Below, piece after piece: positions 1,398-20,823 of a stretch of DNA of 20,823 bases. The notes beneath the pieces are model-generated. The model worked only from the letters and a program-made list of their open reading frames with translations. It ran no database searches and was not told the origin of the DNA. This DNA is from a virus: the IMG/VR virus record IMGVR_UViG_3300020536_000045, positions 1 to 20,823 of that record; one strand, 5' to 3'. The translations under genes were made by a program, and so were the position numbers. Positions within the stretch are counted from its first letter, which is position 1. Each line of letters opens with the position of its first letter.

Positions 1398-1718
1398 TTA
1401 ACTGATTTCTAATACTGAGCAAATGACATCAGCGTTTGCTGAAGCTGACACTTTTAATGCATCGCTCGCTTCAAGAACCAATTTTTGGTCTCCACCTATT
1501 GGCACGAAAGAACCTCCAGCTGCAATCGTAACTTCTTTGATTAAATAATAATCGGTTCCACCTGCCGTCAAATATACATTTGCAGATATGGGAGAGTTAG
1601 TCATATTTGCTACACTCATACCAATCACCGTGGCCTGAACACCACCACCTGCGGTAAACACTGTTTGTGGCGTAGTGTTAGCGTTTTTAATTAAATAATT
1701 TTTAAAGGTGTTTGCCAT
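1398..1718 (-). CDS. Small conserved phage structural-type protein (106 aa)
   Basis: The protein is compact and beta-rich, with no signal peptide or membrane segment. The pattern FKNYLIKNANTT, VFTAGGGVQATVIGMSVANM, YYLIKEVTIAAGGSFVPIGG, QKLVLEASDALKVSAS, ICSVLEIS resembles a small family common beside fibre and baseplate genes of T4-like and other tailed phages, usually labelled only as structural or hypothetical. The start is supported by an AAGGA ribosome binding site 11 bases upstream and by a late-promoter-like motif at 1740-1747. The 37-base gap before it is the longest on the minus strand, so this gene probably begins its own late transcript with the downstream fibre genes. A minor fibre or decoration role is inferred from context. 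Confidence 0.65.
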   Translation of the reverse strand: MANTFKNYLIKNANTTPQTVFTAGGGVQATVIGMSVANMTNSPISANVYLTAGGTDYYLIKEVTIAAGGSFVPIGGDQKLVLEASDALKVSASANADVICSVLEIS

Positions 1719-1739: not shown

Positions 1740-1747
1740 TATTTATG
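1740..1747 (-). promoter_or_regulatory. T4-type late promoter -10 motif (CATAAATA)
   Basis: On the minus strand the gap before the 106-aa gene reads CATAAATA, one base from the T4 late consensus TATAAATA. It ends 21 bases before the ATG at 1718. A start site about 6 bases downstream would leave a leader of roughly 15 bases that includes the AAGGA ribosome binding site. T4 late promoters need only this -10 element plus gp55 and gp33; no -35 box is expected. Confidence 0.55.
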
Positions 1748-8523: not shown

Positions 8524-10125
8524 TTAGAAGCTTATAATTAATCTAATATTTTCAGCTTGACCGTCTGCTCGGTCAACTTTTGTTGTGTTTTCTACGTACA
8601 ATATATCACCACTATATGGCTCAAACTCTGGGTTTGCAACTCCAGTAACAGTTCTAGAGCGACCAGAAGTTAATCCAATTAAAGGCAAACCTGTTGTAAA
8701 CGTGCCTTTTGCTTTACTTATTCTTACTTTATTACTAGTTTGAGCGTGAACAAAACCATATGCTGTGGGGTTATCTAATGAGCTTTGATAAACATATTCA
8801 TTCAAGGCATAAGGAAAACCAGCCACCACATCCAAATCTGTTGTTTGAGAAATCACAGAATTAGCCGTGGATGTATTTGCTACATTTGATGATCCATATT
8901 TATACGGGCTTCTTAGAAGTCCATACTGCCTAAATGAGGTGTCAATAGATATTTTTCCACCCTCGGTCGAGTCTATTTCTCCAATTCTCACCGAAACCAT
9001 AACATTGTTGGCTCCAAGTTCTTTGGCTGGATTGAAACCGTGGCCAAATTTTGGAGGTAAAATAACTCTGGCATTAGCTCCAGAACCAGAGCCAAAGATG
9101 AAAGCGTTCGCTCTTGTATATCCTGTTCCAATCGTATCTACTGTAACTTTGGAGATATTTGCTAAAGATGAATCAACACCAACTAAAGTGTTTGATATTG
9201 TGGCGTTAGCTGCAACTCCAATACCATCTCCCGCTATATAAACTCTAGTTGCAATCGTAATGTTATTGGCGTTTCCACCAGAACCCGTTGTCGCTTCAGA
9301 TAAAGTAATTACACCAGTTACGTTAGATATTGAACTTATGTAAACATCAGCCGAAATCCCTGTTCCAGATATTGACATATTAGCTAAATTAGCTAAACTT
9401 GGAATATTAAAAATAGATAAAACATTAGCGGTGTTTGATAGTCGGATTGTAGACTGGGAAGAATTGAAACCGTCCACCCGAATAGTTGAAGATTGACGAT
9501 AGTTTTGTCCTTTACTTGTTACAACGATACTGGTCAATTCTCCATCGACAATTCCAGTTGAATTTATCCCATAGTCCAGTGCAGCAGATGAAACTGGAGT
9601 TGGCATCCATGAAGAGTTTAAAAACTTGTTAGATGGTTTAACATTGAAAAGATATTTCCAAACATAACCGTCGGCTGTACCAATATTACCGTTCGAAGTC
9701 GTGTAGTCACCTGTTGGTTCTACTGTAGAATTTGCAGAGGCATTATTCGATACACACAGATAAACATTTCTATCTGTAGTGATAATGTACATGGGTTTCA
9801 AATTCTGAGTCGAATTGGCAGACAACAGAGTTTCTATGCCAATTGTGTCATCATATTGGCGATATTTTGTGTTTGAGGTCCAATTAACTCTAGGAACAAC
9901 CAGATGCACATCATTTCCGGTTACTCTTTTTGCAGCAAAAACATTGTCCCATATTTCTTTTTCTGAATAACTTGTATCAACAATTGAATCTGGAGATGAT
10001 TCATTGGCATAAGGAACATGGTTTCCTAAAAACACATACGCTATTGTAGGATCGTTTTCGGAGAAAGATTCTTTAAACTGTTCAGCTGTATTGAAAGCCA
10101 GTTTTTTAGTGATTAACTTTGTCAT
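8524..10125 (-). CDS. 8: Baseplate wedge protein gp8
   Basis: This is a gp8 homologue, the wedge protein that T4 uses as a dimer with gp7 and gp10. The family pattern runs in order: an acidic IWDNVFAAKRV segment, VVPRVNWTS (T4: IPRRDW), YDDT, a VYLCVSNNASANSTVEPTG block at about residues 121-139, and DGYVWKYLFNVKPS at 152-165 (T4: DGYVWEYLFEIPP). The C-terminus EPYSGDILYVENTTKVDRAD, ending IRLIISF, is typical of marine T4-like gp8. At 533 aa it is much longer than T4 gp8 (334 aa); the extra length includes GxGY-like segments at about 196-215 and 323-356. A late-promoter-like motif ends 6 bases before the ATG and I see no clear ribosome binding site, so it may be translated nearly leaderless or by coupling to the gene 9 bases upstream. 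Confidence 0.88.
   Translation of the reverse strand: MTKLITKKLAFNTAEQFKESFSENDPTIAYVFLGNHVPYANESSPDSIVDTSYSEKEIWDNVFAAKRVTGNDVHLVVPRVNWTSNTKYRQYDDTIGIETLLSANSTQNLKPMYIITTDRNVYLCVSNNASANSTVEPTGDYTTSNGNIGTADGYVWKYLFNVKPSNKFLNSSWMPTPVSSAALDYGINSTGIVDGELTSIVVTSKGQNYRQSSTIRVDGFNSSQSTIRLSNTANVLSIFNIPSLANLANMSISGTGISADVYISSISNVTGVITLSEATTGSGGNANNITIATRVYIAGDGIGVAANATISNTLVGVDSSLANISKVTVDTIGTGYTRANAFIFGSGSGANARVILPPKFGHGFNPAKELGANNVMVSVRIGEIDSTEGGKISIDTSFRQYGLLRSPYKYGSSNVANTSTANSVISQTTDLDVVAGFPYALNEYVYQSSLDNPTAYGFVHAQTSNKVRISKAKGTFTTGLPLIGLTSGRSRTVTGVANPEFEPYSGDILYVENTTKVDRADGQAENIRLIISF
8897..8904 (-). promoter_or_regulatory. Perfect TATAAATA motif inside gp8
   Basis: On the minus strand this is an exact T4 late promoter -10 sequence, about 380 bases upstream of the giant gene's start. 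It also simply encodes Tyr-Lys-Tyr (residues 408-410), so it may be chance. If active it would boost the 1993-aa gene and the fibre cassette. Confidence 0.25.
9058..9159 (-). repeat. GxGY-type repeat in gp8
   Basis: Residues 323-356 read ISKVTVDTIGTGYTRANAFI followed by FGSGSGANARVIL, matching the strand, GxGY, strand, SGA pattern seen in neighbouring baseplate genes. A weaker copy (TSIVVTSKGQNYRQSSTIRV) lies at about 198-217. Confidence 0.6.
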
Positions 10126-10131
10126 AAGTCT

Positions 10132-10139
10132 TATTTATG
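10132..10139 (-). promoter_or_regulatory. T4-type late promoter -10 motif (CATAAATA) at the gp8 start
   Basis: The minus strand reads CATAAATA followed by AGACTT and the gp8 ATG. The motif overlaps the stop codon of the upstream 845-aa gene. With the usual T4 spacing the transcript would start at about the A of the ATG, which is unusually close. Confidence 0.5.
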
Positions 10140-12672
10140 TCACTATAATAAGTGTTTGTGCAGAAGCATTTGTGGTAAATGCTGAAGATACTGAAATATT
10201 TGTATTGCTAATTATATTATTAACTATTCTTAATTCTCCGTTCACAGCAATACTTGTACCAATCGTTAGTGTTCCACGTGAATTGGAAATATTGAACGAA
10301 GTGTTTGTACCTGTAACAAATATGGATCCATTTGTAACAGACACTTTACCAGAAACTACATTTTCAGTTATAGAAGATACAGTTACAACATCAGACTGCA
10401 CTATTGTTGTTTTATTGTAATCGGCGTAATTTACAAAGCCTGCTGGATGCAGAAGTTCACGGAGTATTGTTTTGTACTTCGTGAATTCGGTCAATGAAGA
10501 TGTTACATAAGAATAGTCAACATAATAATTTCCACCTTGCAATCTTCTTTCATTGCTTGAGATGATAGAATCGGATGTTGTCCATCTGCCTGGGAAAGTT
10601 TGATACGAAGAACCTATAACGGCATTTGCAACAGCTGATCCATCTCCACTATTAGTTAAATCGATTTGCGGAATATATTCGTAACTTGTTCCACCAGTCA
10701 AAACTCTAATCGACTGTATTTGACCAACAATCGAATCTGTTAAGGCTGTCAGTATTTCTCCGTCACCCATTAGAGAGGTAATAGCAATATTGGCTCCAGA
10801 ACCTCCACTTACGTTTGAAACACTAACTGTTGGGAAAATTCCTTGAGTGTAATTTACTCCACCCACAAACCCTCTAGAGTAAGAACCTATTGGATAATTA
10901 TTTGCCCAAGTTGTAGTATCACTAAAATTAAATGGGACATTAACTGTAGCAGTAGTTGATGAAGTTATAGCATTAATAAATCGTTCTTGACTTCGAATAA
11001 CAATTTTATCACCAACAACAACATCAACACCAAAGTCTGTATTTGTTCCCGTAATGGTAATGGAGTTATTTAATATGTTGGCTGTTCCACCAATTCTTTG
11101 TGGTTGTATTTGAACCTTCTCTACAGCACCATTTGCTGCAACTTGTAAGACCGCTGCAGCAGCTCCATATCCACTAGTTCCAGGCGGATTGGTGCCAAAT
11201 ATAATTTCATCACCGACTTTATATCCTGTTCCGCCAGCGTAAACGTCGATTCTTCCAACAGAACGGAATGTTTTTATATCTTGGAATGTGTTTCCTAATT
11301 GGAACTTAGCACCTTCAGAATCTATCGATGAGGTGTTTATTGATGTATTTGAGAATAATATTTTAGCATTTGTTATTGGGCCGAGATCAGTAACCACAGT
11401 TGAAGTTAAACTGTCGTATATTCTGGAATTAACATTTTCTCCAGTTGGTATAATAGAAGATGGAAATCCATAGTCTGAAGAAGAAATTAAAATGCTAGCG
11501 TAGTTTTCGATTAATTCATCGGTAACAACATAAAAATTATTTGTATAAACTCCCGAAGTGTCTATTCCATCAAGAGCGCCACGAATAAGTGTCAATGGTA
11601 TTTCACTCTCAAATTCACTAGCAACTTTAAATCCAGCACCACCATAATCAACTCTTATTCTATTTGTAAATCCAGAAGAAATTCTTTCAACTTCAGCAGT
11701 AGCAGGAGTCTCAGCACCACCTCCAAGAACTAAAACTGGATCACCAACATTATAATTTGATCCACCATTAGTAACAACAATCGAAGTTAAAATAGAAAAA
11801 GTATCTGCTGTTAAATCGATCTTCAGTCCGTTTGAATCGATAATATCAACCGAAATTTCTTCACCATTAGAAAAATTGCCACTTAAAGTTTTTGAATTAA
11901 TAAACAATTCAAAAGGCAATCCAAGGTTTAATCTATCAGTAATAATTTTTTTAGTAGAGCTTTCTACAATCGCTGTAGCACCAGATTTTAGACCAGTAAC
12001 TTTTCTATTATTAAATAGTTCAATATCAAAATCTGAATAAACAACTTTAACTTGAGAATTCGAAGATGGAGCTGTGTTGAATATTAGTTTTCTAGATTCT
12101 TTACGAATAAGGTAATCTGTTCCTACAGTTTTTAAAACTCCATCAATATAAACTTCAACTTCATCATTATCTACTTGTTGTGCCAAATAAAATGTTGTGT
12201 TTGAGCCGTTCGCTGTATAAACGCTTCGTACATCAGTTTCCAACTTTAAGATATTGTCAATTACCCATTTACCGTCGGAAGCACGGAGAACATTGTTTTT
12301 AGGTAAAAGAACTTCAACCTCATCATTAAACAAAAGTCTAAAGAGGAGTTTAAAAGACTTCTCATTGCCTCTTGCTAAGTACAAAGGTAAAACATTTTTA
12401 ATTAAAACTTCTTTGCTTACTTCAACATCTCTTGGGAAAAGAGAAGCATACATGTTAAAGAAACTCTCTTCAAAAGAAGATATTGAAGAATCTACATCAG
12501 AAACATATCTTAATTCTTTAGCCTTTACCGTCAGATCATTTTTATCTGTACCTTGAGCATTTTCCAAATATTCGTAGTAAGCTTCCAAAAAGGTAACGAA
12601 TAGTGGATATTCAGTCCTTACAAATTCAGGAACTTGTTTATTTACAAGTAAAGATGTTTTTAAATCAGTCAT
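10135..12672 (-). CDS. Baseplate wedge protein in the gp7 position (845 aa)
   Basis: The gene lies between gp6 and gp8, where T4 has gp7 (1032 aa). Residues 1-135 hold a conserved domain of marine T4-like phages (NKQVPEFVRTEYPLFVTFLE, AYYEYLENAQGT, IKNVLPLYLARGNEKSFKLL, ASDGKW). Residues 295-690 hold several GxGY beta-repeats. The C-terminal part (RRLQGGNYYVDYSYVTSS, then YKTILRELLHPAGF, residues 709-746) is another block I recognise from phage structural proteins. Residues 533-582 and 780-832 are two copies of a second module (TGTNT.F...VGD.I.V...R.I..I.S.T...V..AF). The ATG overlaps the gp6 stop (TAATG), so the two should be co-translated. Equivalence to gp7 is inferred from order and size; I cannot align it to T4 gp7. 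It is surely structural. Confidence 0.8.
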   Translation of the reverse strand: MTDLKTSLLVNKQVPEFVRTEYPLFVTFLEAYYEYLENAQGTDKNDLTVKAKELRYVSDVDSSISSFEESFFNMYASLFPRDVEVSKEVLIKNVLPLYLARGNEKSFKLLFRLLFNDEVEVLLPKNNVLRASDGKWVIDNILKLETDVRSVYTANGSNTTFYLAQQVDNDEVEVYIDGVLKTVGTDYLIRKESRKLIFNTAPSSNSQVKVVYSDFDIELFNNRKVTGLKSGATAIVESSTKKIITDRLNLGLPFELFINSKTLSGNFSNGEEISVDIIDSNGLKIDLTADTFSILTSIVVTNGGSNYNVGDPVLVLGGGAETPATAEVERISSGFTNRIRVDYGGAGFKVASEFESEIPLTLIRGALDGIDTSGVYTNNFYVVTDELIENYASILISSSDYGFPSSIIPTGENVNSRIYDSLTSTVVTDLGPITNAKILFSNTSINTSSIDSEGAKFQLGNTFQDIKTFRSVGRIDVYAGGTGYKVGDEIIFGTNPPGTSGYGAAAAVLQVAANGAVEKVQIQPQRIGGTANILNNSITITGTNTDFGVDVVVGDKIVIRSQERFINAITSSTTATVNVPFNFSDTTTWANNYPIGSYSRGFVGGVNYTQGIFPTVSVSNVSGGSGANIAITSLMGDGEILTALTDSIVGQIQSIRVLTGGTSYEYIPQIDLTNSGDGSAVANAVIGSSYQTFPGRWTTSDSIISSNERRLQGGNYYVDYSYVTSSLTEFTKYKTILRELLHPAGFVNYADYNKTTIVQSDVVTVSSITENVVSGKVSVTNGSIFVTGTNTSFNISNSRGTLTIGTSIAVNGELRIVNNIISNTNISVSSAFTTNASAQTLIIVT
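10177..10335 (-). repeat. TGTNT-type module, copy 2, in the 845-aa protein
   Basis: Residues 780-832 read GSIFVTGTNTSFN, then TIGTSIAVNGELRIVNNI and NISVSSAF. This matches copy 1 at 10927-11076 in order and spacing. It forms the very C-terminus of the protein. Confidence 0.6.
10603..10719 (-). repeat. GxGY-type repeat in the 845-aa protein (C-terminal copy)
   Basis: Residues 652-690 read IQSIRVLTGGTSYEYIPQID, then LTNSGDGSAVANAVIG. It has the same strand, GGxxY, strand, GDGSA layout as the copies in gp6 and the giant protein. Confidence 0.55.
10927..11076 (-). repeat. TGTNT-type module, copy 1, in the 845-aa protein
   Basis: Residues 533-582 read ILNNSITITGTNTDFG, then VVVGDKIVIRSQERFINAI and TATVNVPF. 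The second copy ends the same protein. Confidence 0.6.
11143..11265 (-). repeat. GxGY-type repeat in the 845-aa protein (middle copy)
   Basis: Residues 470-510 read RSVGRIDVYAGGTGYKVGDE, then IIFGTNPPGTSGYGAAAAVL. This is the clearest copy in the protein. Confidence 0.6.
11683..11790 (-). repeat. GxGY-type repeat in the 845-aa protein (N-terminal copy)
   Basis: Residues 295-330 read LTSIVVTNGGSNYNVGDPVL, then VLGGGAETPATAEV. It has the strand, GGSNY, GDPV strand, Gly turn, ATAEV strand layout. Confidence 0.6.
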
Positions 12673-14717
12673 TAAACTTTAACTAATTCCGTTGTAATTG
12701 ATGAAGAGTCTGTTTCATCAATAGTTATAATTGTATTTTTAACAGACTCAACAATCCCTCTTTCAGATTCTATGTCAAGTCTTATGTAGCCATCCGTAGA
12801 AGAAACCGAAAGTATTTTTATATCCGATATATTTAAGATGCCATTATCATAGTCTATTGTTCCAACGTTTTCATTAACAATTTGTTTCTCTGCATTACTA
12901 TCGTAATATATTGTAGAGAGTTGACCAGTTCTAGCATCAATAACAGCAATAGCAGAAGCACCTGATCCATTTCCACCAGTTATTGTTACAATAGCTCTTG
13001 TATAGTTTATTCCTCTTTTTGTGACATTTATTTTTTCTATTTTTCCATTAACAATTACAGCTTCAGCCGTAGCACCAGTTCCATCTCCAGTTATGGTCAC
13101 TGTAGGACTCTGTGTATATCCAGAACCAGAATTAGTTACACTTATAGAAGAAATACCGGAGTATGCTTGAGAAACTTCTTCGAAAATAACTGTTCTTTCA
13201 ACACCATCTGAATCCAATACATTGAATGTTGAAGAGGTCAATCTATTACTAATTGTTCCTCTATGTAAAGGAGAATTAAAAGCTATTATATAACTTTTGT
13301 TCGTATTCAGTGAAGGTAAAAATCTTTTCTGTAATCTTACAGTTACCTCTGAACCTATGATCGAATTTAAACTTGTACCATCAACATCATCTTGCATCTT
13401 TGAAAGAACAAATGTTGCTCCAAACTTATTTAAATTAATATCTCTATAATTAATGATGGCATTTCTGATAGAAGTTTTTAAGGCATCTTCAGATAAAACA
13501 GTTTTTCTAGAATCATACTTTACATAAGAGTTTACTAGAAGATACAGATATTCCGGGTCAACAATTTCCGATTGAACGGCAACAATTGACTTTGGCGTGA
13601 TTATGTCATCAATGATTCTTTGCTTTTCTGCTTCTGAAATATAATAGTTAGATTTCGGTTTAATCGAAATGTAAACTTTACCATAAACTGGTGGAGTTTC
13701 ATCTTCTCCACCCCAAACAGAAATAGAATCTAAAGATGGATAATTTTGGCTTATATAAGTTTCATAGTCTTTAAAAGTTACCAATCTATTTTGTGTAGCA
13801 AACTGAGAAGTCGCTGAAGATTTAATAGAATCAACGCTTTCTCTATCTGAGCCTCCAGCTGCAGCACTTACAACATTTACTGTAAAGTCGGTCAATCCAG
13901 ATAACGATGTACTAGCAACAAATCCTGCAACTCCATTTGGATCGGCGCCACTAGAAATAAGATATGACATTGTGATTACCGATCCATCTCCCAATTTTTT
14001 GCCTACAACACCATCTCCAAAGTAGATTTGAAATTTACCATTTCTGGCTTCTTGTAAAAAATAAACTTCGGAACTAGAACTAATATCTAAGATATCAGTA
14101 ACCTTATTATATGTCGATATTTCAGTATTTGAAGTAGATGGTCTAACAGTTACCTTTAATGTTGTTGTGTCAATGTTAGCATCAGGTAAAGTAAACACCT
14201 GCTTTGGATTTGAGGCATTATCTTGTACAAATTGTATAGAATTATACTGGCCCTCAAATAAATTTAAGTTTTCAAAATAGTAGCTAGTATTAGATTTCGT
14301 AACAGTTACATCATCTAAAACTATAAAGTTATAAGTGGTGTTATTGAGTGTTTCGGATAAAAATGTAAATCCTCTAGGAATGGTCAATGTTCCCGATGAA
14401 GTAGAAGTGGTGCCTACAGTTACATTACATATAGCTCTAGCTGATCTTGTCGAAAAGGGAGTATAACCTAAAGTTTTAGCATGAGAAACCACCGATTCTC
14501 TGAGAATAGCAGTATCTAAAAACGATTCATTTGCCACCATATTTAAATAGTAGGCATTGTAATGTGTATTATAAGCTAAAACATCCAATAAAACACTTAA
14601 ACCAGATCCATCAAAATCGTAATCTGTGAATTCGGATTGTTGTTTTAAATAGTCTTTTAAGTTTTGTTTAATTGAGTCGAAGTCTAGTTCAGACAACACT
14701 AATCGGTTTGTCGCCAT
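12672..14717 (-). CDS. 6: Baseplate wedge protein gp6
   Basis: This is a homologue of T4 gp6, the wedge component (P2 gpJ-like core) that forms the inner ring and governs the baseplate switch. At 681 aa it is close to T4 gp6 (660 aa). The N-terminus (LVLSELDFDSIKQNLKDYL, DFDGSGLSVLLDVLAYNTHY, then ANESFLDTAILRESVVSHAK and LGYTP, residues 6-86) is the conserved gp6 start. The wedge-core region with DRESVDSIK and RLVTFKDYETYI lies at about 290-322. Residues 524-595 hold two GxGY repeats inserted near the C-terminus. The ATG overlaps the gp25 stop (TAATG) and the gene ends overlapping the next ATG, which suits production of partner subunits in fixed ratio. Confidence 0.92.
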   Translation of the reverse strand: MATNRLVLSELDFDSIKQNLKDYLKQQSEFTDYDFDGSGLSVLLDVLAYNTHYNAYYLNMVANESFLDTAILRESVVSHAKTLGYTPFSTRSARAICNVTVGTTSTSSGTLTIPRGFTFLSETLNNTTYNFIVLDDVTVTKSNTSYYFENLNLFEGQYNSIQFVQDNASNPKQVFTLPDANIDTTTLKVTVRPSTSNTEISTYNKVTDILDISSSSEVYFLQEARNGKFQIYFGDGVVGKKLGDGSVITMSYLISSGADPNGVAGFVASTSLSGLTDFTVNVVSAAAGGSDRESVDSIKSSATSQFATQNRLVTFKDYETYISQNYPSLDSISVWGGEDETPPVYGKVYISIKPKSNYYISEAEKQRIIDDIITPKSIVAVQSEIVDPEYLYLLVNSYVKYDSRKTVLSEDALKTSIRNAIINYRDINLNKFGATFVLSKMQDDVDGTSLNSIIGSEVTVRLQKRFLPSLNTNKSYIIAFNSPLHRGTISNRLTSSTFNVLDSDGVERTVIFEEVSQAYSGISSISVTNSGSGYTQSPTVTITGDGTGATAEAVIVNGKIEKINVTKRGINYTRAIVTITGGNGSGASAIAVIDARTGQLSTIYYDSNAEKQIVNENVGTIDYDNGILNISDIKILSVSSTDGYIRLDIESERGIVESVKNTIITIDETDSSSITTELVKV
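12918..13148 (-). repeat. Two GxGY-type repeats in the C-terminal part of gp6
   Basis: Residues about 524-600 read SVTNSGSGYTQSPTVTITG with DGTGATAEAVIVNGKIEKI, then NVTKRGINYTRAIVTITGG with NGSGASAIAVID. The two copies repeat at about 38 residues. Confidence 0.7.
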
Positions 14718-15127
14718 TATCTTACCCGTTCAAGGAAAAAATTTATTGATATTGGTTCTGTTCTGTTCACAATAAAAAATTCCAATTCTACTTTGTATCC
14801 ATTGTTATCGTAATCTGGAATTAAAGTGGTAGTTTTTATTCTTGCTCTTGGTTCGTAACTTCCAATAACAGATTCTATTTCTCTTTCTATGCTTGCGGAA
14901 GTAACTGTATCGAGAGGTTCAAATAGTAGTCTTTGAATATTACTTCCAATATCTGGCTGAAAAGGCCTCTCATAATGATTTGTAGAAATTAAATTTTTAA
15001 CAGAATTAATTACAGCATATTCTCCAATATGCTTATTCACATCCTTTTTGACAGGATGAATATTAAAAAATAAGTCCAGGTCTTTATAAGTTCTGGATAT
15101 GTTACTATTTACAGTTGTAGTTGCCAT
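14717..15127 (-). CDS. 25: Baseplate wedge protein gp25
   Basis: The protein is 136 aa, the normal length for gp25 (T4: 132 aa). It belongs to the gp25 lysozyme-like-fold family, which is structural and clamps gp6 and gp53 next to the sheath. Visible motifs are the N-terminal RTYKDLDLFFNIHPVKKDV, FQPDIGSNIQRLLFEPLD at residues 56-73, and the diagnostic EPR at 92-94 (SYEPRARI). The PAAR gene ends 11 bases upstream. A late-promoter-like AATAAATA ends 4 bases before the ATG. GGAGGT at the end of the PAAR gene is 14 bases from the ATG, long for a ribosome binding site, so read-through and promoter-specific transcripts might be translated differently. Confidence 0.93.
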   Translation of the reverse strand: MATTTVNSNISRTYKDLDLFFNIHPVKKDVNKHIGEYAVINSVKNLISTNHYERPFQPDIGSNIQRLLFEPLDTVTSASIEREIESVIGSYEPRARIKTTTLIPDYDNNGYKVELEFFIVNRTEPISINFFLERVR

Positions 15128-15131
15128 GTAT

Positions 15132-15139
15132 TATTTATT
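15132..15139 (-). promoter_or_regulatory. T4-type late promoter -10 motif (AATAAATA) before gp25
   Basis: The minus strand reads AATAAATA, ATAC, then ATG. It matches the T4 late consensus at 7 of 8 positions and lies in one of the few gaps within the operon. It would start a transcript for gp25, gp6 and the gp7-position gene at or just inside the gp25 ATG. Confidence 0.45.
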
Positions 15140-15450
15140 CAACCTCCGACAAAGACGTTGGGGGAACCTTGCGTAATTATATTTGGTCCATACTCATCAC
15201 CAATTCTTCCCATTCCTTTTCCACCTATACTCACAGAACTGGAAAATGATGATAATGTTGAGGTGTCTGTCGTACATCCACGTTTTGGGTGAGCCGCAAT
15301 TCTATTGCCGGCTACAACGATTAATTTTCCGTTAGCATAAACACCCTTGTCGTTTACTTGTCCGACCGAAGTTCTCATGGGAGATTTACATTTTTTGCCG
15401 GATCCATCTCTCGACATAACGCTATCGCCCGATCTTGAAACTGCTGGCAT
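15139..15450 (-). CDS. 5.4: PAAR-domain spike-tip protein (gp5.4-like)
   Basis: This 103-aa PAAR-type protein would cap the trimeric gp5 beta-helix and sharpen the spike tip. The start MPAVSRSGD and the end MGRIGDEYGP, IITQGSPNVFVGG are typical of the family, in which the strands repeat as GDxxxx and GSPxVxVGG. A Cys at 21, His at 54 and Cys at 59 (HPKRGC) are candidates for the metal site that PAAR tips carry; the common early HGC motif is not seen. The gene follows the unknown 188-aa gene with a TAATG overlap and an AAAGGA ribosome binding site. T4 also places gp5.4 between gp5 and gp6. Confidence 0.85.
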   Translation of the reverse strand: MPAVSRSGDSVMSRDGSGKKCKSPMRTSVGQVNDKGVYANGKLIVVAGNRIAAHPKRGCTTDTSTLSSFSSSVSIGGKGMGRIGDEYGPNIITQGSPNVFVGG

Positions 15451-18217: not shown

Positions 18218-18870
18218 TGTTTAATAACTTTCTTAAATTCTTTTTCGACCGCAGATACAAACTCTGGTTTTAAAAGTTTAATACTTCTTTTATTTTCATT
18301 CAATTCGTTTTCATAATCATAATATGATTGTTTTTCTTTAGTGATGGCTTGTGTAATTGTAGAACTGTCTTGTAGGGTATAACTTGTGGTTGTAGGTGCC
18401 ACATTAGCCCAAGTATTAGCATCAACTTCTAATTTTTCGATGATTGAAATGTTATCGAAATTTGTTCTTGTTACGACTTTGTAATATGCATGAACATTGG
18501 TTACATTCATTGCCCACGAAAGACCAGTAACACTTGTATTTGCGGTATCCGCATAATTGTTTGCAGAGTATTTTTTATCAACATATTCAATGAATGTAGA
18601 ATATTGCAAAGGCCAATCATATTGTGGGTCGTAAATGTCATTAAACATTAAAACGATCCAATGTCTTTCAGGACTATCGTAAAATTTAGCCGCAACAATT
18701 TCAGGTGTGTCACCTTCTTGCAAATCGTATTTGTAAAATGCCGATGAGTTTTCTTTTAGTGATTGTTCAAAACCAAACCTTGCAGTAATGTTCGTAATCT
18801 CATCAAGGCCTGATGTTCTAGTATTTGAACTGTATAATGCTTTTGGAAAATAATTAAAATATTTTGCCAT
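18214..18870 (-). CDS. 53: Baseplate wedge protein gp53
   Basis: The 218-aa protein is close to T4 gp53 (196 aa). gp53 has a LysM-like fold and joins wedges around the hub. The start MAKYFNYFPKALY, the block WIVLMFNDIYDPQYDWPL at residues 71-88, and the C-terminal helix YYDYENELNENKRSIKLLKP (182-201) are typical of gp53 in marine T4-like phages. Residues about 101-180 form a Thr/Asn-rich extra segment. The start overlaps the gp48 stop (TAATG) and its stop overlaps the hub ATG, so gp48, gp53 and hub should be translated in series. Confidence 0.9.
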   Translation of the reverse strand: MAKYFNYFPKALYSSNTRTSGLDEITNITARFGFEQSLKENSSAFYKYDLQEGDTPEIVAAKFYDSPERHWIVLMFNDIYDPQYDWPLQYSTFIEYVDKKYSANNYADTANTSVTGLSWAMNVTNVHAYYKVVTRTNFDNISIIEKLEVDANTWANVAPTTTSYTLQDSSTITQAITKEKQSYYDYENELNENKRSIKLLKPEFVSAVEKEFKKVIKQ

Positions 18871-20123
18871 TATTTTCTCGCAGAACTTAGGGTTGCAGAT
18901 GTTGCTAAATCTTCCCTAAAGTCCTCTTTCGTTAGATATGTTGTTTCTTGGAATTGTAATGTGGCTTGAATTGCAACGGGCATACCAGTTCTACCGAGAG
19001 AAGGTTTGTTTTCACCAGGTACCTCATATGCAGAGAACCCGTTTGGTGCGTAATTGATATCAATTGTAGTCAAAACACAAGTTGCAATTTGTGGAATGTT
19101 TGGGTTTTCTCCACCTGCATAATAAAACTTAATATCGAACTCAGAGGGAGGTACTAAAAATCCTGAAGTTTCAGAACCTTTATCGCCTTTTAAAATTTCT
19201 GGCGCTTGATGAAAACGAAGTCTTTCTAATATTTTCTGAACTTCTAATGCTTCTCGTTCATCTCTTGGGTAAAAAGTAAAATCGAATTGAAATGTTCTAA
19301 AATTGGGCGACTTGTAAATCATTTCAAGCATTGGGTTTACAACACGACCAGTTCTTGCCAAAAATGCTGCGGCTGTTTGTTGACTATTCAATAAACTACC
19401 AAGTCCTTCTCCAAGTATTTGTTTTACATTTTCACCACCTGATTTTTGAAGTGATGCTCCTAATTTACCTAAATCGCCAGTTTTTTTATAATCTTCATAA
19501 GCAGATTGGCCTGCGGCAAAAACTTGACCCGCAAATTCACTACCTAAAGATAACTGGTCATAAGATTGTGAATAACTGTAATTCAAAGTATCTGGCATGT
19601 AAAGTGCAATTGCATCAGTTGTTAATGCTGTGGTTTTAAAATTTATATTCAAACCTTTTTCGGTAATTCTCTTAATCGAGGTATCAATTAACTTCTGTGA
19701 TTCTTCGGCATTAGGTGTGAAACCTCCACCTTTTTGTGCAAACAGATTATTAATACCACCAGTAATACCAGATGTTATTTTTCCAATAAAACCTGAAGCT
19801 GCATTTATCGCACCATTTTTAACTGCGTTTAATGCTTTACTTGGAATGTCTCCACCTGCTTTAATCGCATCAATTACACCTGCAGCGCCCACATTTGTAA
19901 CATCACTTGTAAATTTTTCACTACCAACGAATCTTTTTGTTAATGAAGTTGTTTTTTGTTGGCGAACATAAAAAACAACATAGTGTGCTTTGTCATAATT
20001 ACCAACATCAAGTGGATATCTTAATGTTGTTCTTTCAAATTCGCTTCCAACAAGTTTAGCTAAAGGTCCTCGTTTAGTTTGACCTTTGTCGAAAGAGATA
20101 TCAGAGAATCCAAAAAGTGCCAT
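18870..20123 (-). CDS. 48: Baseplate tail-tube cap protein gp48
   Basis: The chosen start is MALFGFSDISFDKGQ at 20123, preceded by CAGGAC at a good ribosome binding distance. The frame continues open to 20219, but that part is antisense to the opposite-strand gp4 gene and adds a non-conserved hydrophobic leader, so it is rejected. The 417-aa product has RYPLDVGNYDKAHYVVFYVR at 35-54, an Ala/Gly-rich helical insertion at about 75-130, and the strong gp48 C-terminal block (NPMLEMIYKSPNFRTFQFDF from 263, FYPRDEREALEVQKILERLR, VPPSEFDIKFYYAGGENP, NYAPNGFSAYE, TGMPVAIQATLQFQETTYLT). gp48 starts the tail tube on the baseplate. T4 gp48 has 364 aa; T4 also has the related gp54, which I do not see here. 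It is the first gene of the leftward operon. Confidence 0.9.
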   Translation of the reverse strand: MALFGFSDISFDKGQTKRGPLAKLVGSEFERTTLRYPLDVGNYDKAHYVVFYVRQQKTTSLTKRFVGSEKFTSDVTNVGAAGVIDAIKAGGDIPSKALNAVKNGAINAASGFIGKITSGITGGINNLFAQKGGGFTPNAEESQKLIDTSIKRITEKGLNINFKTTALTTDAIALYMPDTLNYSYSQSYDQLSLGSEFAGQVFAAGQSAYEDYKKTGDLGKLGASLQKSGGENVKQILGEGLGSLLNSQQTAAAFLARTGRVVNPMLEMIYKSPNFRTFQFDFTFYPRDEREALEVQKILERLRFHQAPEILKGDKGSETSGFLVPPSEFDIKFYYAGGENPNIPQIATCVLTTIDINYAPNGFSAYEVPGENKPSLGRTGMPVAIQATLQFQETTYLTKEDFREDLATSATLSSARK

Positions 20124-20149: not shown

Positions 20150-20157
20150 TATTTATG
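20150..20157 (-). promoter_or_regulatory. T4-type late promoter -10 motif (CATAAATA) for the leftward baseplate operon
   Basis: On the minus strand CATAAATA ends 26 bases before the gp48 ATG. The downstream leader holds the CAGGAC ribosome binding site. The same bases on the plus strand include the ATG of the divergent gp4 gene, so promoter and start codon overlap. Consensus match is 7 of 8. Confidence 0.55.
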
Positions 20158-20586
20158 TCATACAAAGGATGGTTTCGACCAAAAAACCCAAACAAATACA
20201 AAGGTAATGCGACCAACATTATCTACCGTTCCAATTGGGAACTGAGAGTAATGAAGTACCTAGATGATAATCCGGCAGTTATATGGTGGGCATCGGAAGA
20301 ATTGCCGATACCTTATGTTTCGCCAGTTGATAACAGAGTGCATCGATATTTTCCAGATTTCATTGTCAGGACCAAACGGAAAGATGGCTCCGAGCAGACT
20401 TCGATAATAGAGGTGAAGCCGTATAAACAAACGATGATGCCAACGCAAAAACGCAAGACCCAACGATACCTGGCAGAAGTTGCCACCTATGCCGTAAATC
20501 AAGCAAAATGGAAAGCTGCCGATTTATTTTGCAAAGAACATGGATGGCATTTTCAGTTAGTCACCGAAAAAGAGTTGGGACTTTGA
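20155..20586 (+). CDS. 4: Head completion protein gp4 (nuclease-fold)
   Basis: This 143-aa protein (T4 gp4: 150 aa) corresponds to the head-completion protein, historically also gene 50/65. The signature runs in order: WFRPKNPNKYKGNATNIIYR, SNWELRVMKYLDDNP, SEELPIPYVSPVDNRVHRYF, then PDFIV and SIIEVKPYKQTMMPTQ. Asp68 (FPDF) and Glu86-Val-Lys88 form a PD-(D/E)xK-type site, the restriction-endonuclease fold reported for this family. It is thought to trim or bind DNA ends before the neck seals. The start is fixed by conservation of MSYKGW; the nearest AGG lies about 19 bases upstream, so the ribosome binding site is weak. In T4 genes 4, 53 and 5 run the same way; here gp4 is divergent from gp48 with 31 bases between the start codons. 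Confidence 0.92.
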   Translation: MSYKGWFRPKNPNKYKGNATNIIYRSNWELRVMKYLDDNPAVIWWASEELPIPYVSPVDNRVHRYFPDFIVRTKRKDGSEQTSIIEVKPYKQTMMPTQKRKTQRYLAEVATYAVNQAKWKAADLFCKEHGWHFQLVTEKELGL

Positions 20587-20594
20587 GATAAATA
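20587..20594 (+). promoter_or_regulatory. T4-type late promoter -10 motif (GATAAATA) before the right-edge gene
   Basis: GATAAATA follows the gp4 stop (TGA 20584-20586) directly and ends 5 bases before the ATG at 20600. It matches the consensus at 7 of 8 positions. The spacing is again too short for a normal leader. Confidence 0.5.
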
Positions 20595-20599
20595 ACCTA

Positions 20600-20823
20600 A
20601 TGGCGACACTAATTGACAGAATTCAAGCATCATTGGCGAAAGAAGGACTTACGCCAAGGACAAATGCAGCCAGAGATTGGCTAAAAAAGAAAGTAAATGA
20701 TTTGAGACCTTCACCAGCATCAATAATGAGGGACAAAGAAAGACTTCGTGATAAGTCATTTATTGGTCGCATGTATTTTTATTTGTATGATCCAAAGCAC
20801 AAAGATACGCTGCCATACTACGA
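20600..20823 (+). CDS. Conserved phage protein of unknown function, partial at its C-terminus
   Basis: The frame starts ATG at 20600, 13 bases after gp4, and is open to the right edge (74 codons plus two bases). The product begins MATLIDRIQASLAKEGLTPR and has NAARDWLKKKVNDLRPSPAS, SFIGRMYFYLYDPKHK, ending DTLPYY. The segment MYFYLYDPKHKDTLPYY looks like a family I remember downstream of structural genes in T4-like marine phages (YDPK.KdtLPYYD.FPLV), but I cannot attach a function. T4 puts gene 2 and gene 3 on the far side of gene 4, so a DNA end protector or tail terminator is conceivable from position only. No internal Met offers a better start. There is no strong ribosome binding site. Confidence 0.75.
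   Translation, partial: MATLIDRIQASLAKEGLTPRTNAARDWLKKKVNDLRPSPASIMRDKERLRDKSFIGRMYFYLYDPKHKDTLPYY

Follow-up and report, generated by a model that had tools for sequence, protein, structure and literature searches.

Gene organization and late promoter motifs of the window

The window, that is, the whole stretch of DNA that was analysed, corresponds to a virus record of 20.8 kb. Its minus strand bears the baseplate cluster of a T4-like phage, and its plus strand gp4 together with the 5′ start of gp2. The N-terminus of the encoded gp2 can be aligned with the gp2 proteins of HTVC008M, Mosig and Melnitz. The gp4 gene is co-directional with gp2 and lies directly upstream of it, its TGA stop codon (20584-20586) abutting the motif in front of gp2. 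The start of gp48/54 was set at the ATG at 20123, downstream of its promoter and Shine-Dalgarno sequence. An Rfam search of the window gave no match, and no genes for gp55, gp33 or gp45 were found in this 20.8-kb fragment. The genes of relevance are:

20600-20823, plus strand: gp2 (DNA end protector), 5′ part, cut by the end of the window (phrog_429, E 1.6e-10)
20155-20586, plus strand: gp4 (head closure; phrog_218, E 8.6e-59)
18870-20123, minus strand: gp48/54 (baseplate tail tube cap; phrog_230)
14717-15127, minus strand: gp25 (baseplate wedge subunit; phrog_261, E 1.5e-45)
8524-10125, minus strand: gp8 (baseplate wedge subunit; phrog_438, E 5.8e-80)
1398-1718, minus strand: gene for a 106-aa protein of unknown function, downstream of a far promoter (phrog_26609, E 1e-5)

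Copies of a late promoter motif precede five of these genes, either a few bases before the ATG (near sites) or further upstream (far sites); the gap is the number of bases between motif and ATG.

20587-20594, plus strand: putative near late promoter of gp2, GATAAATA, followed by ACCTA and the ATG at 20600; gap 5
15132-15139, minus strand: putative near late promoter of gp25, AATAAATA, followed by ATAC and the ATG at 15127; gap 4
15143-15147, minus strand: GGAGG preceding the gp25 motif, at 15 nt from the gp25 ATG, by direct reading
10132-10139, minus strand: putative near late promoter of gp8, CATAAATA, followed by AGACTT and the ATG at 10125; gap 6
20150-20157, minus strand: putative far late promoter of gp48/54, CATAAATA; gap 26, with the Shine-Dalgarno sequence AGGA at 20133-20130
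1740-1747, minus strand: putative far late promoter of the 106-aa gene, CATAAATA; gap 21, with AAGGA at 1732-1728

A preliminary description of this DNA had placed NATAAATA 5, 6 and 4 bases before the ATGs of gp2, gp8 and gp25, and these positions and distances proved exact on re-reading. It had also set these sites against the promoters of gp48/54 and the 106-aa gene, which were said to lie further upstream and to be followed by a ribosome binding site, and this is correct for both genes. The consensus of the T4-type late promoter is an 8-base TATA box, TATAAATA or a one-base variant of it, and the near sites of the window, in which the first motif base is G, C or A, conform to this description. 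In keeping with the placement of late promoters before structural genes, the sites precede gp2, gp8, gp25 and gp48/54. The far promoter of gp48/54 overlaps the start codon of the divergent gp4 gene (ATG 20155-20157), the CAT of the promoter being the complement of that ATG; relatives repeat this overlap, with gacATAAATActatctag before gp48/54 and ctagatagtatttATG before gp4. A sixth copy at 8904-8897 on the minus strand is the only perfect TATAAATA in the window; it lies inside gp8, runs into an ATG and has no obvious role.

The number of ATAAATA copies in the window (6, against 9.0 expected) is not above chance and was dropped as evidence. Their placement is another matter: the motif occurs at a gap of 4 to 6 in 2 of the 16 called genes of the window, compared with 0.03 in dinucleotide-shuffled upstream regions, and none of 2000 shuffles reached 2. 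This statistic is conservative because gp2, an ORF cut by the window edge, is excluded from it. In the window the genes upstream of gp2, gp25 and gp8 are all co-directional with them and stop at the motif or shortly before it, so that a read-through mRNA of each is possible. The stop codon of the gp7-like gene upstream of gp8 (10137-10135) falls within the gp8 motif. The GGAGG, which codes for the final Gly-Gly of the PAAR protein, lies upstream of the gp25 motif, so it would be carried by read-through transcripts only.

Motif position in related contigs

A gp6-based scan of viral contigs yielded 80 related loci, of which 42, the window included, were left after removal of near-copies. Their upstream set comprises 378 genes with 60 bases upstream of each and contains 93 copies of ATAAATA. 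No fewer than 72 of these copies lie at a gap of 4-6 before the ATG; gaps of 0-3 do not occur, a gap of 7 occurs once, gaps of 8-17 do not occur, and the remainder fall at 18-42. Dinucleotide-shuffled upstream regions of the same contigs yielded on average 0.8 and never more than 5 copies at a gap of 4-6, with 0 of 200 shuffles reaching 72, and permuted words of the same letters were found there in 0 to 3 copies, words overlapping the motif excepted. This count of distances in relatives against a shuffled control, a check that had been set beforehand, thus came out in favour of the earlier proposal: the distribution is sharply bimodal, with gaps of 4-9 and of at least 13 and almost nothing between.

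By orthology, the related contigs have the near promoter before gp2 in 16 of 16 cases, before gp25 in 39 of 41 and before gp8 in 21 of 22. The near motif is absent in these contigs from gp4, gp53, gp5, gp6, gp7, the PAAR gene and the large VrlC-like gene. Motif and spacing are preserved among relatives where the flanking sequences diverge, and in the group of the window the gap is mostly 4 for both gp25 and gp2. A Shine-Dalgarno-like word accompanies 2 of 73 near genes as opposed to 16 of 19 far genes, a difference with a partly mechanical cause, as such a word would have to stand where the near motif is. For this reason a missing Shine-Dalgarno sequence was retained as a correlate and rejected as independent evidence.

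Cultured phages

Taken together, the pelagiphages HTVC008M and Mosig and the methylophage Melnitz contain 17 sites with a gap of exactly 5, besides four with a gap of 7-8. The whole genomes of T4, KVP40, Syn9 and S-PM2 contain no site at a gap of 4-9; a single one (gap 9) occurs in S-TIM4 and three (gap 5-6) in P-SSM4. The ratio of near (4-9) to far (13-30) sites is 21:31 in HTVC008M, Mosig and Melnitz versus 4:85 in the pooled genomes of T4, KVP40, Syn9, S-PM2, S-TIM4 and P-SSM4 (Fisher p 1.4e-7). Within the near class of the isolates T is the commonest first motif base (11 of 21). The near sites of HTVC008M precede gp2, gp25, the tail tube cap and other structural genes, and none is found before annotated replication genes; those of HTVC008M and Mosig belong to largely different genes. 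In P-SSM4 (AY940168) the near sites are located at 11737, 107316 and 172881, one of them behind a terminator-like hairpin. Caulobacter phage Cr30 was set aside as a comparison; it has only 6 copies of ATAAATA and its late promoters cannot be judged by the motif.

Searches by tblastn with HTVC008M proteins showed that gp55, gp33 and gp45 are all encoded by HTVC008M, Mosig and Melnitz, and that gp33 is also present in three contigs of the group to which the window belongs. The gp55 proteins of HTVC008M and marine cyanophages are about 62% identical, and the difference in promoter placement therefore does not arise from a very different sigma factor. Ribosomal protein bS21 is encoded by Melnitz, HTVC008M and Mosig (L082, L083, L084), and among the complete isolates searched these are exactly the three in which the near class is marked. 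The protein was not found in the nine other T4-like phages searched, nor in the contigs of the window's group, which are partial.

Genomic context of gp2 and gp25

A further 190 loci were obtained with gp2 and gp25 of HTVC008M and its relatives as queries. An ATG is present at the expected start of every gp2 and gp25 orthologue analysed, and the N-termini align. Among 65 distinct starts of pelagiphage-like gp2 genes the gap is 5 in 48 and 5-8 in 57. An intrinsic terminator stands directly before 24 of 59 near gp2 sites in pelagiphage-like contigs, against a rate of 0.0008 in shuffles; two of the hairpins have folding energies of about −19 kcal/mol (z about −4). Where the gene upstream of a terminator-bounded gp2 is in view it is co-directional, mostly codes for about 300 amino acids and ends 55-79 bases before the motif. 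In Mosig this is the gene for the ssDNA-binding protein and gp2 heads a run of baseplate genes, so the succession of terminator, late promoter and ATG probably marks the border of replication and late genes.

Where a terminator precedes the near promoter, the 5′ end of the gp2 mRNA must fall in the interval from terminator to ATG, which lacks a Shine-Dalgarno sequence. In HTVC008M gp2 is back to back with a divergent gp4 gene at a distance of 26 bp, has the motif at gap 5 and lacks a co-directional upstream gene. An upstream leader is unavailable to these gp2 genes unless the terminator is read through or antisense transcription crosses other genes. A terminator with a near late promoter directly behind it is found after the ssDNA-binding protein gene in both Mosig (L167:6670-6745) and HTVC008M, and in HTVC008M the same order was also read by eye after the major capsid gene (HTVC008M loci L154:6210-6280 and L157:15510-15560). 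Terminator and leaderless promoter are arranged as if they formed one module.

The gp25 gene belongs to the near class in the window's group, HTVC008M and Mosig and to the far class in Melnitz and many other contigs. Among 112 gp25 sequences a Shine-Dalgarno-like word was found in 2 of 68 near genes versus 34 of 37 far genes, which again is partly mechanical. On the gp25 tree five changes between near and far are needed, and strongly supported branches force at least two. The gene-by-gene element of the earlier proposal is borne out by these data: gp2, gp25 and gp8 are near and gp48/54 is far, and gp25 switches class between lineages along with its Shine-Dalgarno sequence.

Predicted position of the transcription start

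In the textbook account of T4-like late transcription a promoter is followed by a leader with a ribosome binding site. We consider it very likely that in the phages described here gp55-type late promoters form a near subset which gives rise to leaderless or near-leaderless late mRNAs and a far subset which yields leadered ones. The motif would act as a T4-type late promoter, read by the phage sigma factor gp55 with gp33 and the gp45 clamp. In T4 the late promoter motif spans positions −13 to −6, its first base being numbered −13 (PMC2988020). In this register +1 coincides with the A of the AUG when the gap is 5. The fixed short gap of the near genes (gp2, gp25 and gp8 in the window) would thus let transcription begin at the start codon or no more than about three bases away from it. 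At the far genes (gp48/54 and the 106-aa gene), a promoter at least 13 bases upstream together with a Shine-Dalgarno sequence would produce an ordinary leadered mRNA.

The sparse parts of the gap distribution can be understood in the same terms. Gaps of 0-3 would be absent because the AUG would then no longer be part of the RNA. Gaps of 10-12 would be nearly absent because they exceed what a leaderless RNA allows yet leave too little room for a Shine-Dalgarno sequence; both depletions are compatible with a transcription start at about the sixth base. For the gap 4 genes of the window's group the strict T4 register would place +1 on the T of the ATG, so initiation one base earlier would be required. 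For gp8, with gap 6, a leader of one or two bases appears more likely than none. Gap 6 and the gaps of 7-9 in relatives correspond to predicted leaders of 1-4 nt, hence the term near-leaderless. The earlier suggestion that transcripts from the near sites would be leaderless is thus supported by the spacing in relatives, the upstream terminators and the divergent neighbour of HTVC008M gp2 at 26 bp, with the start sites themselves placed by the T4 register and translation of the leaderless mRNAs a prediction.

Alternative explanations

The near motif could instead be a late promoter for genes further downstream, the adjacent gene being translated solely by coupling from read-through mRNA. The co-directional genes that end at or just before the motifs of gp2, gp25 and gp8 in the window would allow this, and the GGAGG 15 nt upstream of gp25 would be present on such an mRNA. 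A promoter serving downstream genes has, however, no reason to hold a gap of 5 (pelagiphage-like gp2) or 4 (gp25 and gp2 of the window's group) while the flanks diverge. Moreover, read-through is hindered by terminators at the 24 gp2 sites mentioned above and the neighbour of HTVC008M gp2 is divergent, and we regard this explanation as unlikely. AU-rich start regions can substitute for Shine-Dalgarno sequences, and since the motif is AU-rich and occupies the position of a ribosome binding site, it might be no promoter and act on translation at the RNA level, for example by binding S1 or by keeping the start region unstructured. Yet the same word is also found at 13-30 bases with a downstream Shine-Dalgarno sequence, as in T4, and permutations of its letters show no enrichment at the near position. 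The terminator-bounded gp2 genes would, in addition, be left without a promoter in view, and such an RNA-level signal is in our opinion very improbable.

Least credible of all is chance, by which an A+T-rich word would happen to lie near the ATGs of an A+T-rich genome and be repeated through common descent. The motif number in the window is indeed not above expectation, and its three near genes recur in relatives by orthology. The failure of all 200 shuffles to reach the count in relatives, the retention of motif and spacing where flanks differ, and the location of the HTVC008M and Mosig near sites on largely different genes leave chance with a negligible share. Leaderless or near-leaderless transcription from near late promoters is the reading we retain.

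Relation to known systems

The T4 late promoters (TATAAATA, with gp55, gp33 and gp45) resemble the sites described here in that the same 8-base element stands before structural genes and relatives of the window's phage encode the three proteins, and the far class with its Shine-Dalgarno sequence has the T4 layout. The shortest gap between motif and ATG found in T4 is 12, however, and the near class is missing in T4, KVP40, Syn9 and S-PM2. Late promoters with NATAAATA have been described in the cyanomyoviruses S-PM2 and Syn9 (PMC2984593). These related phages use the same element, but nearly always at 13 bases or more, and among four cyanophage genomes only P-SSM4 has sites at gap 5-6. For the lytic Thermus phage phiYS40 it was reported that most middle and late mRNAs are leaderless and that a shift in IF2/IF3 occurs (PMC3594737). 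The likeness lies in leaderless late mRNAs, which here are predicted from spacing, terminators and divergent context; phiYS40 is an unrelated phage, whereas in the window's phage group the mode would be gene-specific and tied to a T4-type late promoter. In the open-access literature that was searched, no account of leaderless late mRNA in a T4-like phage came to light. T4-type late promoters and leaderless mRNAs are each known, and it is their combination that is unreported there.

In a whole branch of the T4-like family, which includes phages of SAR11, an abundant ocean bacterium, some late genes appear to have promoter and start codon fused. In a study of pelagimyophages the prediction of late promoters was unsuccessful (PMC7029224), and the near sites offer a concrete answer to this that can be tested in cultured phages. 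As a broader and more tentative proposal, which we think possible though rather doubtful, T4-like phages of streamlined aquatic bacteria may have a set of leaderless late mRNAs from gp55 promoters whose +1 is fixed on the A of the AUG, used particularly after a terminator or a strand change and possibly aided by bS21. A divergent copy of bS21 has been reported from putative freshwater pelagimyophages (PMC7029224), and the HTVC008M protein is reported to enter Escherichia coli ribosomes (PMC9723584). That bS21 aids leaderless mRNAs is a guess, and as the cause of the near class it was rejected, the relation being a correlation within one isolate group and the gene not having been found in the window's group, whose contigs are partial; there is nevertheless reason to ask whether phage bS21 alters the choice of mRNA by the ribosome.

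The gp25 gene provides natural pairs of one gene with and without a leader. In one cluster of gp25 sequences (loci L320-L361, Mosig included) the gap is 7-9, which corresponds to a predicted leader of about 2-4 nt and which, if real, would be an odd intermediate between leaderless and leadered mRNA.
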